IMG/VR virus record: IMGVR_UViG_3300031670_000019
Coordinates: 1-20,110 of that record
Source of the DNA: a virus
Strand: one strand, 5' to 3'
Length of the DNA stretch: 20,110 nt
The notes under the pieces were generated by a model. That model did not search any database. It was not told the origin of the DNA and saw only the letters and a list, made by a program, of their open reading frames with translations. Below are positions 2,771-6,254 of the stretch, in pieces (the stretch's first letter is position 1; each line of letters opens with the position of its first letter). The translations under genes and the position numbers were made by a program.

Positions 2771-3487
2771 ATGTTTGACGAAAAAGAAGAGCAAAATTTA
2801 GATACGCAGAATCAGGTTCAGGAAGGTCAGGTAGATAACGAACAGAATGAGCAAGAAGTCGAGAGCGGTGCGAAGCAGAGTTTCAGAGAAATCCGAACAA
2901 AACTTGAGAAGACGCAAAAAGAAAGAGACGAATTATACCACTATATTAAAAATATTGAGGCTAAAAACAGCGCTAATACTACTAGTGATAACGTGTCTGA
3001 CGAAGATTTTGCATTGGATCCGGACGCTTTGGCAGAAGGGAAACATTTAAACAAAGTAAAGAATGAAGTAAAGAATCTCAAGAAGCAATTGCAGGAATTT
3101 AAGAAGATATCTGAAGAAACTATAGCTGAGAGTAAATTACGCAGTAAATATTCTGATTTCGATCAGGTAGTCTCTGAACAAAATATAATGTTTTTAAAAG
3201 ACAAACATCCAGATTTGTGGAATACAATAGCTTCATCGAATAATTTATATAATCAAGGATTGAGTGCTTATATGTTTATTAAGAGCATTAATCCAGGACC
3301 ATCACAAACAGATGAAGATAAATTAACGATGCAAAAGAATATCTCCAAACCTAGATCTATGACAAGTATATCTCCGCAACGGGGAAGTAGTCCATTATCG
3401 CAAGCCAATGTATTTGAAAAGGGATTAACTCCGCAATTAAAAGATCAATTATGGAAAGAGATGCAGGACGCTATGGGGAACAAATAA
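2771..3487 (+). CDS. scaffold-like head assembly protein
   Basis: A 238-residue, strongly charged, mostly helical protein. Residues 1-35 are Gln/Glu/Asn-rich and acidic. Residues 37-62 carry SFREIRTKLEKTQKERDELY, a coiled-coil block closely resembling the start of many phage scaffolding proteins (FR.LR.K.E.LEKERDEL). A second coiled coil lies at about residues 93-125. A short globular part follows (KYSDFDQVV...DKHPDLWNTI), then a disordered Ser/Pro-rich stretch and a helical, basic C-terminus, where scaffolds usually bind the coat. ATG 2771 follows AAGGAG. The position upstream of the capsid gene supports the call, which rests on composition, motif and context rather than a database match. 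Confidence 0.7.
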   Translation: MFDEKEEQNLDTQNQVQEGQVDNEQNEQEVESGAKQSFREIRTKLEKTQKERDELYHYIKNIEAKNSANTTSDNVSDEDFALDPDALAEGKHLNKVKNEVKNLKKQLQEFKKISEETIAESKLRSKYSDFDQVVSEQNIMFLKDKHPDLWNTIASSNNLYNQGLSAYMFIKSINPGPSQTDEDKLTMQKNISKPRSMTSISPQRGSSPLSQANVFEKGLTPQLKDQLWKEMQDAMGNK

Positions 3488-3582: not shown

Positions 3583-4152
3583 ATGAATATATACAAATAC
3601 GGCAACAATACAAAGGGGAAGAAATATGATCCAAACAGAGCCTTTATTGATCCCAGAGATGCACGGGATGTATGGTTGAAATATGAAACTGAAGAGGATT
3701 ATAGCACATATATAAAATTCCCAATATGGATAACAGATGGAGTTGAAGTCGAATTGGATCACACTCTGTACAAAGAAGTTCCACGAAGTGTTGAAATGTC
3801 GAATGGAAATTATTCTGAATATTGGATGGCGCCGGGTCATGAATATCCGTGGTATAATGATGAAGAAAATAGGGAATTAACCGAACATGAACTTATTAAG
3901 CCCCCAATACCCAAGGCAATCTATACTTGTTATCGGATTAATCATGACCCAAAAGAACATATTCCGGATGCTGAAGCTATAAAGTCGGAAAATTTAATCT
4001 GGACTAAAAAAATACAGAGATTAAAAAAATTAAAAGAAATGATAATTCGAGAAAATGTAGCACCATGGCAATCCGCTAGAGATTACAATGATTTAATAGA
4101 TGAAATGGATGAATATATTGAACTACTACATGAACGGATTAAAATAATTTGA
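3583..4152 (+). CDS. hypothetical protein, 189 aa
   Basis: Unrecognised. ATG 3583 is the first possible start after an in-frame TAA at 3577-3579, and the ribosome binding site is weak. The protein is acidic, rich in Tyr, Trp and Pro in its first 130 residues (IYKYGNNTKGKKYDPNRAF, then DPRDARDVWLKYE), and ends in two probable helices (about residues 140-189) with heptad-like Leu/Ile spacing. It lies alone between the scaffold gene and the capsid gene and is followed by a strong terminator 28 bp after its stop. The 95 bp before it contain only very short frames. Confidence 0.6.
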   Translation: MNIYKYGNNTKGKKYDPNRAFIDPRDARDVWLKYETEEDYSTYIKFPIWITDGVEVELDHTLYKEVPRSVEMSNGNYSEYWMAPGHEYPWYNDEENRELTEHELIKPPIPKAIYTCYRINHDPKEHIPDAEAIKSENLIWTKKIQRLKKLKEMIIRENVAPWQSARDYNDLIDEMDEYIELLHERIKII

Positions 4153-4180
4153 TATATATTTACAAAATATAATATACTTT

Positions 4181-4214
4181 AAGTGGCGCAAATGAAGTTC
4201 GCCACTTCTTTTTT
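4181..4214 (+). terminator. rho-independent terminator before the capsid gene
   Basis: AAGTGGCG (4181-4188) pairs perfectly with CGCCACTT (4200-4207) and is followed by CTTTTTT. It ends the scaffold-region transcript and implies that the capsid gene has its own promoter or depends on read-through. The same sequence is also the first member of the four-unit repeat described next. Confidence 0.85.
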
Positions 4215-4293
4215 AGTCGCAAGTGGGATTCGGCCACCCAGTCGCAAATGAGATTCGACAACTCATGACGCAAAATTAAGACTCGTCATCTTA
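4185..4293 (+). repeat. four tandem units able to form crossing helices (pseudoknot-like)
   Basis: Four imperfect units begin at 4185, 4216, 4241 and 4267 (spacing 31, 25, 26). Each has the order a - CAA - b - short linker - a' - b'. Helix a: GGCG 4185-4188/CGCC 4200-4203; GTCG 4216-4219/CGGC 4231-4234; GTCG 4241-4244/CGAC 4256-4259; GACG 4267-4270/CGTC 4284-4287. Helix b: GAAGT 4194-4198/ACTTC 4204-4208; TGGG 4224-4227/CCCA 4237-4240; ATGAG 4248-4252/CTCAT 4262-4266; TAAGA 4277-4281/TCTTA 4289-4293. Sequences change while pairing is kept, which indicates selection on RNA structure. Because a-a' and b-b' interleave, each unit is either an H-type pseudoknot or two alternative hairpins. Whether the units are transcribed together with the capsid gene is not visible. 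Confidence 0.75.
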
Positions 4294-4329
4294 TTCTAGG
4301 TAAAAGTTTCAACTTAACTTAAGGATAAA

Positions 4330-6254
4330 ATGTCCATAACTACTACAAGTATTTTACCTCCACCAATTAAAGCTAGTTTTGATTTCAAGCTCCTTGCAGT
4401 ACCAGTACCAACAATGATTCACAATATACCTGCAATGAGAAGTATTCATCCTAGAAATGGTGGTGATGTACATAGATTTAGAAGGTATAATGCGTTGAAT
4501 ACTGCATTAGTACCTTTGGGACCCAGTGGTATGACACCACCTGGCCAGAATTTAACTGCTGTAGACATAGATGCTCAGATATCATTTTACGGTACTTTTG
4601 TGACTATTAGTGAGCAGGTCACATTGCAGAATCAAGACCCTAAAAAGTATGGGGTCGTTAAACTTTCTCTAATTGACTTGGAAGCCTACGGTATTAACTA
4701 AGGTGACAAGGGCGAAGGATTTTTTAACGGATGATTATGAAAACGAGAATTAAGATTACGCAATTCTTCAAGAAGTTTAATGCGCTGTTCATTTACTTCA
4801 GGAGACAAGAGTCTACTTCCGATATTTTTAGAAGTGAGTCTATATCTCATCATAACATCACATTGTTTCTTTTTGATAATCAAAAATGGCTTAACTTGCG
4901 GCAAAATATAATCGAGCATTGGTCCCGTAGCTTGCCAATTATAGACGGGGCGAGTGAATTTCTGTTTACTTGTCCATCTGTAGCGCGAATCTTTGGATCC
5001 ACCAAAAGTATTTTCCAACCAGATTATAAGTTCTTCATCGCAGCTAGTTATTTTAAGCATAGAATGCCATTGATATCCATTGCCATATTTTCCTTGTTTG
5101 GTATGACCAATATAAATACAACCTTCACCATCAATAAGGCCAGCCAAATAAGCGATTTCTGCAATGGAATGATGTGTATTAAACTTAACGATTTTTCCCA
5201 TAATTATCCTTACATTTATAACATTATAGCATTAAATGAAAATAAAATCCACGCTGAACGACTTAACGAGAGAGACTTTGAAAAAAGTATGCGAAAGTCT
5301 GAGCTCTTTTCGAAAGAAAGAGAGGAAGATCCGAAGAGGTTTTCCCGCCTAATAATAGGTCATAAAAGTAACAGAATGGTATTAAATGAAGCAGCTAAAC
5401 GTCTTGGTGTTTCCCTTAACAAGCTGGGGGAAGTAAAACTAAACCTGAATACCTTGGAACACCTAAGGGCACAAGCCTAAGGCAACCAGATGGAACTTGA
5501 CTAACTGAAGATGTGTCAAGACCAGCAGAGACTAAGCGGTTTAGAGTTGTATAATATCAACTATGCGATAGTCCGAACCTAAGCGAAAGTTTGGGAGGAG
5601 GGATTAACAAGACCTCCCGCCAATAAAAAATTGGTCACAAAAGTAACAGATAGCAGACAAACCGAAGATGAACTAACACGTAATATGTTAGCATCTTCAG
5701 CATCGTTTATAAACTGTGTTAATGGATTTAACGGTGATTCTCCTACTGAGATCACATTCCCGGATGTACAGAATATTGTTGCAACATTAATAGATAATAA
5801 TGCATATACTATTCTAGATGAAATACCGGGAGAAGACCGTTTTGGGACCGCACCAGTAAGAGAGGCGTTTTATGCTTTAAGTTCATCTAAGCTGATTCCT
5901 GAATTGGAAAATATGGATAGATTTATACCTAAATCTCAGTATCCTTCTTCAATGAGAGGATTACCGAGTGAATGGGGTTCATGCTCAAACTTAAGGTTCT
6001 TGGTATCCAGTATTGGATCATTCTTTCCAAATGCATCTGCACTAGGATCGAATGTGTATAATACCTTCTGTGTGGGTCTAGAAGCATACGCATATATCTA
6101 TCAAGACGGGTATAATGCGGAGTTCATCTATCGACCGCCAATTTTTTCGGGTCCATTAGCTCAAAATGCAACTTGTGGATATAAGATGGCAAGTGCTCAG
6201 CAAATACTTAACGATTTGTGGGTACTCAATTTACGTAGCACAAAAGCATCATAA
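4330..6254 (+). CDS. major capsid protein, N4-gp56 family; three exons 4330-4641, 5379-5416, 5654-6254
   Basis: Builds the icosahedral head. Joining the three exons gives 951 nt, or 316 residues plus TAA. Exon 1 encodes residues 1-104 and includes GQNLTAVDIDAQISFYGTFV and ISEQVTLQNQDP; exon 2 encodes VLNEAAKRLGVS and two bases of the next Leu codon; exon 3 continues LRQTEDELTRNMLASS. The restored order (P.G..L...DV.A....YG.Y..IS..V followed by NEA...LG and D.LTR) is the N4-gp56 capsid pattern as I know it. ATG 4330 follows AAGGATAAA. Unspliced, exon 1 would run to TAA 4699 and yield a 123-residue fragment, so the head depends on splicing. The next gene starts 8 bp after the stop. Family by memory; exon limits from pairing and frame. 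Confidence 0.9.
4642..5378 (+). ncRNA. group I intron 1 of the capsid gene, with an antisense endonuclease gene
   Basis: A 737-nt self-splicing intron. P1 pairs exon GACCCU (4636-4641) with GGGGUC (4651-4656), leaving the required U.G pair at the 5' splice site. P3 is UUCUCU 4665-4670/AGAGAG 5269-5274, P7 is GACUU 5260-5264/AAGUC 5295-5299 and P8 is ACUUU 5275-5279/AAAGU 5284-5288 closed by a GAAA tetraloop. The intron ends in G5378, and the first five exon-2 bases GUAUU can pair with AGUAU 4646-4650 as P10. The 5' splice falls on a codon boundary. The endonuclease gene sits in a loop probably closed by GGATTTT 4717-4723/AAAATCC 5244-5250, most likely P6. The core resembles intron 2 helix by helix. 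Confidence 0.9.
4698..5201 (-). CDS. LAGLIDADG homing endonuclease, antisense within intron 1
   Basis: A 167-residue protein with one LAGLIDADG motif, written YLAGLIDGEGCIYIG, at residues 18-32; D24, G25, E26 and G27 form the catalytic motif. Single-motif enzymes act as homodimers that cut an intronless allele so that repair copies the intron in. Later segments (HSMLKITSCDEELIIWLENTF at about 47-67, in two parts HSMLKITSCD and EELIIWLENTF, then a KPFLIIKKKQ block) are usual for the fold. ATG at 5201 has its own site, AAGGATAATT, on the minus strand. The gene runs opposite to its host gene, so it cannot be translated from capsid mRNA and needs a separate minus-strand transcript. Its last codons overlap the antisense of the intron core. 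The active state is inferred from an intact frame and motif. Confidence 0.92.
   Translation of the reverse strand: MGKIVKFNTHHSIAEIAYLAGLIDGEGCIYIGHTKQGKYGNGYQWHSMLKITSCDEELIIWLENTFGGSKDSRYRWTSKQKFTRPVYNWQATGPMLDYILPQVKPFLIIKKKQCDVMMRYRLTSKNIGSRLLSPEVNEQRIKLLEELRNLNSRFHNHPLKNPSPLSP
5379..5416 (+). other. 38-nt micro-exon of the capsid gene
   Basis: Encodes VLNEAAKRLGVS plus the first two bases of a Leu codon completed by C5654. Its first five bases serve as the P10 partner of intron 1 and its last six (UUCCCU) as the P1 strand of intron 2, leaving 27 nt with no splicing role. Skipping it would join 4641 to 5654 and shift the frame, so both introns must be removed separately. Confidence 0.85.
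5417..5653 (+). ncRNA. group I intron 2 of the capsid gene, without an ORF
   Basis: A compact 237-nt group I intron. P1 pairs exon UUCCCU (5411-5416) with GGGGAA (5427-5432), with U.G at the splice site. P3 is UAAACC 5440-5445/GGUUUA 5538-5543, P7 is GACUA 5530-5534/UAGUC 5569-5573, P8 is AGUUG 5545-5549/CAACU 5558-5562, and P9 is CCUAAGC 5578-5584/GUUUGGG 5589-5595 capped by GAAA. A further 3' hairpin uses GGAGG and CCTCC near 5596-5617. The intron ends in G5653, and exon CAG 5654-5656 pairs with CUG 5424-5426 as P10. Ending the exon at 5416 completes a Leu codon (CT+C) and restores the frame exactly. The 18 bases at 5633-5650 match intron 1 (5358-5375) in 17 positions. Confidence 0.92.

Follow-up and report, generated by a model that had tools for sequence, protein, structure and literature searches.

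The window, by which we mean the whole stretch of DNA that was analysed, is a virus record of 20,110 bases. It carries a free-standing HNH endonuclease gene (298-924, phrog_374), a scaffold-like gene (2771-3487) and, on the plus strand, the major capsid gene. The first exon of the latter runs from 4330 to approximately 4641, and an intact relative matches phrog_1357, a major head protein. An ORF of 189 amino acids without a match to any known family (3583-4152) lies between the scaffold-like gene and the capsid promoter. The capsid gene is interrupted twice (4642-5660), and both inserts end in AAAAGTAACAG. The first insert (about 4642-5377) contains an ORF on the opposite strand that Pfam recognises as a LAGLIDADG endonuclease. 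The second (about 5422-5660) gives a weak match to the group I intron model RF00028, with 24.6 bits and an E-value of 0.00072, below the gathering threshold. Among the relatives L002-L081 the capsid frame breaks at several codons, e.g., after about 31, 81, 90-96 and 117-124 amino acids. Since the frames of the relatives break at different codons, the capsid gene seems to act as an insertion hot spot.

The tandem units upstream of the capsid gene

The original prediction placed four tandem units with crossed helices upstream of the capsid gene. The sequence and structure assignment confirmed this position and revealed four units of a-b-a'-b' order at 4184-4293, with all eight helices present. 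Unit 1 (4184-4208) combines the first helix, S1, formed by TGGCG/CGCCA (4184-4188/4200-4204), with the second helix, S2, formed by GAAG/CTTC (4194-4197/4205-4208); its outer helix can be extended to 8 bp, beginning at 4181, and the unit is followed by a T-run (4209-4214). Unit 2 (4216-4240) has GTCG/CGGC, with one G-U pair, as S1 (4216-4219/4231-4234) and TGGG/CCCA as S2 (4224-4227/4237-4240). Unit 3 (4241-4266) has GTCG/CGAC (4241-4244/4256-4259) and ATGAG/CTCAT (4248-4252/4262-4266). Unit 4, the last one (4266-4293), has TGACG/CGTCA (4266-4270/4284-4288) and TAAGA/TCTTA (4277-4281/4289-4293). All four lie on the plus strand. Lone crossed-helix matches are frequent by chance in such AT-rich DNA, so one unit by itself proves nothing; the real signal is the tandem array plus its conservation, not the single units. 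The nested fold of the array stretch is nothing unusual (z = -1.24), a result that is expected if the helices cross.

Across the family, a unit consists of S1 of 4-6 bp, a loop L1 that begins with Y-A, S2 of 3-6 bp, a short loop L2 ending in U, the strand S1', 0-2 nt (L3, often A), and the strand S2'. S1 mostly ends in C-G or G-C beside the loop, the inner pair being able to flip to C-G or A-U, and one bulged base interrupts S1 in 89 of 232 units. In a scan free of any sequence motif, the first letter of L1 is a pyrimidine in 123 of 142 units, the next is A in 103, and the final letter of L2 is U in 107. The CAA that had been described as common to the units is found in some relatives, while others have UA(N) instead. 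L2 is mostly 2-3 nt long. L3 measures 0 nt in 109, 1 nt in 90 and 2 nt in 33 of the 232 units, the scanner having permitted only 0-2 nt.

This geometry agrees with a classical H-type pseudoknot in the a-b-a'-b' order with both helices conserved. It departs from it in the third loop: a classical H-type pseudoknot usually needs an L3 of about 3 nt or more to cross S1, whereas here L3 is 0-2 nt within the limits of the scanner. Because L3 is shorter than the classical type usually allows, the units may stack otherwise, using L3 as the junction, or the two helices may alternate. The mean duplex energies of about -5 and -3 kcal/mol per unit, before loop costs, mean that the units are individually weak.

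Conservation of the crossed helices and spread of the family

The capsid exon (4330-4698) used as a query against IMG/VR returned 89 relatives, of which 80 loci were retained. A further query, an alignment of full capsid proteins (A1), gave at least 578 relatives, of which the best 80 were retained. In total, 157 loci had at least 100 nt of upstream sequence, and 120 of them were non-redundant. The table of capsid starts lacks L024 and L071, which have too little upstream sequence, L083, L085 and L086, whose retained sequence does not include a capsid start, and the duplicates L089, L124 and L142. At least two units were found in 76 of the 120 non-redundant loci, so that the pairings are kept in related phages: many leaders have the same type of array built from different bases. 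The 76 arrays have two (22), three (35), four (13), five (5) or six (1) units. The array table includes a few chance units, such as the AT-rich one that precedes unit 1 of the window.

The signal is concentrated at one place. Scanning 620 kb of real loci on both strands yielded 36 clusters, whereas a dinucleotide shuffle yielded one. The capsid strand carries all 36, nearly all of them 35-130 nt 5′ of the capsid start. The array is found much less often in a distant capsid group of about 40% identity: the strict scanner detected at least two units in 11 of 79 loci, and one member, L318, has three clear units. Leaders of the same group (L320-L397) contain candidate units of the GCGTTA type, seen by eye and missed by the strict scanner, which may represent a branch of this RNA family that has diverged.

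Three tests, set up to keep circularity low, address the pairing itself. The first dealt with S2 in 204 units of 85 loci, which were anchored by S1 and the loop letters alone, loci with less than 100 nt upstream being excluded. The mean S2 stem has 3.60 Watson-Crick pairs vs. 1.84 when downstream strands are swapped (sd 0.07, maximum 2.03 in 200 trials), i.e., S2 is specific to its own unit. At least three pairs are formed in 80% of units vs. 30% for swaps within an array. A scan based on pairing only, with no sequence motif, detected 142 units in the leaders; shuffled leaders gave 15, and control stretches located 1 kb upstream (107 loci) gave 19.

Two-sided changes were counted in 46 gap-free units, which remained of 55 sequences after the removal of 9 that were out of register or outside arrays. 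Shuffles gave 17.9 (sd 3.7) cells with such changes, the real units 56; pairing is kept in 87% of cells, and the signal is lost if the partner is shifted by one to three columns. The outer S1 pairs occur as G-C, A-U, U-A and U-G, and the S2 pairs as three to five types. Since these units were selected for G-(U/C)-A, U and C, the invariant columns of the 46-unit alignment are partly invariant by construction; the unbiased letter figures are those of the pairing-only scan given above. Covariation in both helices, together with the excess in the motif-free scan, bears out the predicted selection: the crossed helices are under selection for structure.

The G-U pairs are less telling. G-U was slightly commoner than A-C in two counts (14 vs. 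9 and 17 vs. 10), not commoner in a looser count of internal pairs (11 vs. 15 in S1, 21 vs. 26 in S2), and in another count the figures were 40 vs. 18 in S1 and 93 vs. 119 in S2. Because G-U is barely or not commoner than A-C, wobble pairs are no proof of an RNA of this strand.

Place in the transcript, specificity and hosts

A predicted sigma70-type promoter precedes the array on the same strand. Its -35 hexamer, TTGATA (4149-4154), makes 10 of 12 consensus matches together with the -10 hexamer, TATACT (4173-4178), which follows after 18 nt and begins 11 nt before unit 1; the site was third in the list of the promoter scan. From the -10 position, transcription is predicted to start at 4184-4186, on the first bases of unit 1. 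Promoter-like sites in that scan are at chance level (47 vs. 51.6), so the support for this promoter comes from its conserved spacing to the array across loci. In 45 of 73 arrays vs. 8 of 73 shuffled ones, S1 of the first unit follows 8-14 nt after the start of the -10 of the best upstream promoter, the hexamers typically resembling TTGCAT and TATACT. At the other end, the distance from the array to the capsid ATG has a median of 39 nt (range 28-197), and all 76 arrays are followed by a Shine-Dalgarno-like motif, which in the window is AAGGA (4321-4325). With the predicted +1 at unit 1 and the array end about 39 nt from the ATG, the array makes up essentially the whole 5′ leader.

These positions tell against part of the original prediction, in which unit 1 doubled as the terminator of the upstream transcript and the array controlled read-through into the capsid gene. 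The T-run after unit 1 is missing in the close relative L004, and the promoter lies just upstream of the array; a conserved terminator role is therefore rejected. Since the promoter separates the upstream gene from the array and the T-run is not conserved, control of read-through is unsupported as well. Judged by its position, the array seems to be the 5′ end of the capsid mRNA, with the predicted +1 at the first base or two of unit 1, rather than a conserved terminator.

A second clade is instructive in this respect. Here, the scaffold-like gene runs directly into the capsid gene with no array between them, and a unit is located just before the scaffold-like gene in 7 of the 18 loci examined. 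Because the unit of this clade precedes the scaffold gene, the element follows the start of the operon, not the capsid ORF. We are highly confident that the element is real, that it has structure, and that the capsid (or scaffold-capsid) transcript has its 5′ end there. As a separate observation, L044 and L045 of the second clade contain a further candidate element, noticed by eye about 750-830 nt before the capsid gene and 5′ of a single unit. It looks like an outer clamp round a small crossed pair (CGG/CCG or CGT/ACG with CCC/GGG).

The array was also sought without reference to the capsid. An IMG/VR search for two units of the GACG type gave 80 loci (81 sites) among the matches listed. Of these 81 sites, 7 are array-like. 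Six of the 7 share their locus with a capsid relative (L209, L215, L250, L263, L267, L275): in five it follows shortly downstream, and in L267 the best capsid match is found at a distance of about 1.7 kb. The seventh, L274, seems to be a chance hit. Nine phage contigs scanned over their whole length contain 12 clusters vs. 2.7 expected; 7 are capsid leaders, and the other 5 lack the motif and look like chance. Thus, no convincing second array was found in these nine contigs. The contigs of L061 and L101 fell below the cluster threshold, though units are visible in their leaders.

The hosts are likely Chlamydiota, as judged from binned genomes and contigs. Among 84,980 species genomes, a close capsid relative occurs at seven loci. 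Three of them are Chlamydiota bins (Simkaniaceae, 78%; Parachlamydiaceae, 82%; Parachlamydia, 81%), and the other four belong to Methylococcaceae (two), Thermotoga and Methanomicrobiales. The capsid matches 8 of 232 Chlamydiota genomes, three of them preselected, all with at least 38% identity in the best segments. In the control, the class of the methylotroph, 3 of 274 genomes match, of which one is the preselected centre and two reach 22-30%. The capsid relatives in named phage records all have less than 60% identity.

Known RNA elements and possible functions

No described element was recognised in the original prediction, and the searches bear this out. Rfam 15 run over the array returned only a chance-level snR75 on the opposite strand (E 4.5), and nothing sensible in six relatives. 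A full-text literature search, whose reach left out most subscription papers, found no description of this array. The array is a clearly defined, widespread RNA family, with none like it in Rfam.

The nearest described kind is STAXI, which is likewise made of tandem pseudoknots (PMC2864571). As characterised in that source, STAXI is an element of Enterobacteriales, where it lies near genes for ssb, topoisomerase and antirestriction and often carries UUCG tetraloops (PMC2864571). The array, in contrast, occupies a capsid leader at the predicted +1, has no internal tetraloop hairpin, is followed by a capsid or scaffold gene and likely belongs to phages of Chlamydiota. The STAXI covariance model (RF01728) matched 0 of 14 phage records, including the window, at E≤10, and no STAXI was found in phages P4 and P1, which were scanned. 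The model searches speak against membership in STAXI or another Rfam family, and STAXI, compared by covariance model and by description, differs in its setting as well.

The ToxI antitoxin of type III systems resembles the array in that tandem repeats, each folding into a pseudoknot, are transcribed before a gene (PMC5772629); ToxI has 5.5 repeats of 36 nt, with a terminator and a ToxN gene behind them. The array differs from it in that stems vary between neighbours, the conserved signal is a promoter rather than a terminator, and the gene is that of a capsid. PADLOC gave no match in 8 window proteins from around the array, and no toxin-like Pfam family was found in 10 proteins (9 from the window and one capsid relative). 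The leader of T4 gene 32 also has a pseudoknot upstream of the ribosome site that is tied to translational control, but it is a single pseudoknot before another gene. The array is a new RNA family within the tandem-pseudoknot kind, for which functions may be proposed.

We tentatively favour, at somewhat less than even chances, the reading that the array acts in cis as an RNA leader: it would be a structured 5′ terminus by which the capsid mRNA is protected and controlled. The capsid operon would have its own sigma70-type promoter, starting the transcript at the first base of unit 1. The mRNA would then open with two to six crossed-helix units, followed by about 39 nt with the Shine-Dalgarno sequence and ATG. 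Being paired from its first base, the 5′ end would be processed poorly by RppH-like enzymes and by 5′-end-dependent RNase E/G, and the capsid mRNA would be long-lived. The array would also keep the ribosome landing zone free, and ribosome access may in addition be controlled by the last unit, whose 3′ strand is CUU-rich.

Among known elements, the closest to this reading are the 5′-terminal stabilising stem-loops of the ompA and papA type. As the array is predicted to do, they provide structure from the 5′ end of the mRNA and would hide it from RppH and RNase E, which need or prefer single-stranded 5′ ends, 5′ structure being reported to stabilise mRNA (PMC3997798). They are ordinary hairpins, whereas the array has several conserved crossed-helix units. 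In the capsid leaders, the promoter position puts the predicted +1 on S1, i.e., the leader is predicted to be paired from the first transcribed base; since RppH and RNase E need single-stranded ends, a longer life of the capsid mRNA may follow. Of the options in the original prediction, protection of an RNA 5′ end is the one favoured by the position of the predicted promoter. Of 63 genomes of Chlamydiota, the likely hosts, 62 have RNase E/G above cut-off.

Other data do not fit a simple clamp. A stronger first unit was looked for and not found: S1 of unit 1 has 4.92 bp vs. 4.80 and 4.68 bp in later units (p = 0.61), which speaks against a pure 5′ clamp. The weakness of the individual units counts against 5′ protection, and a clamp alone explains neither the several copies nor the conserved loop letters. 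A different kind of protection, a roadblock to 5′-to-3′ exonucleases as formed by xrRNA-like elements, is weakened if the hosts are Chlamydiota, where RNase J was above cut-off in 0 of 63 genomes.

As the units are repeated and their loops conserved, recognition by a protein or RNA polymerase is suggested. It is possible, though doubtful, that the units form a new class of RNA fold, a compact module of crossed helices whose junction is L3 rather than L2, with a continuous a'-b' strand and with L1, including its conserved Y-A, lying in the groove. Two to six such beads, placed at +1, would make a modular 5′ "cap" on the capsid mRNAs of an abundant lineage of phages from environmental chlamydiae, which either a dedicated protein or RNA polymerase would recognise.

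Rather unlikely, but to be taken seriously, is an operator array, in which a protein of the phage or host would bind the repeated units and act on the translation or stability of the capsid mRNA. The simplest autoregulator would be the capsid protein itself, with the last unit, nearest the ribosome site, as the effector. Stems that vary around kept loop letters (Y, A and U at the frequencies above) are what a recognised module would have, and the copy number of 2-6 also suits such sites. Furthermore, the last unit has an identity of its own: its S1 is GACG in 45 of 76 arrays, and its CUU-rich 3′ strand is more complementary to the leader, in the anti-Shine-Dalgarno sense, than those of other units (permutation p = 0.0002). 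However, this complementarity is a small effect and not specific to the phage's own leader (7.92 vs. 7.69, sd 0.13), and no candidate protein was found among the flanking genes, none of which is similar to an RNA-binding family according to Pfam or PADLOC.

It is improbable that the nascent array binds RNA polymerase and, in the manner of put RNAs, lets it pass the pauses and terminators of a long structural operon. The best precedent for a nascent RNA acting on polymerase directly after a phage promoter would be put of phage HK022, whose putL, about 70 nt long, comes directly after its promoter and acts as an RNA in cis on RNA polymerase (PMC9378689). Like put, the array is a structured RNA at the predicted +1, present once per genome, and long ORFs continue on the same strand to the window end. 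Unlike the array, put RNAs are two stem-loops with no crossed tandem units, and they act on early operons. Terminator-like sites between 2700 and 14100 number 5 vs. 6.0 expected, with only one on the coding strand, and the tight spacing between array and ATG would be left unexplained.

Less probable still is a translational switch in which S2 of the last unit exchanges with a pairing between its CUU-rich strand and the Shine-Dalgarno sequence, turning capsid synthesis on and off. The UCUUA strand of unit 4 (4289-4293) is able to pair with UAAGG in the Shine-Dalgarno stretch of the leader, and the last unit is the most complementary one, but the small effect without phage specificity noted above weighs against a switch, and the remaining units would have no role. 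The special character of the last unit, in its GACG helix and its 3′ strand, leaves room for translational control. A DNA-level element, single-stranded or cruciform, that serves replication, packaging or recombination and happens to fall in the leader is very improbable: G-U pairs are few and do not clearly outnumber A-C, and the same option was weighed for STAXI by its authors (PMC2864571), but orientation and position are fixed between the predicted promoter +1 and the ribosome site, and the element relocates with the operon start.

Structured protection and control of the capsid mRNA is thus the reading that we prefer. The array combines unusually strong covariation with a fixed genetic address, from the predicted promoter +1 to the capsid start, and since the family is clearly defined and has such an address, its role is directly testable. 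The geometry with a short L3, if real, would be an unusual way of building a tiny pseudoknot. In general, the array probably controls the amount of capsid made. It suggests that, in this large group of uncultured phages with environmental chlamydiae as probable hosts, capsid synthesis has a main control point after transcription.
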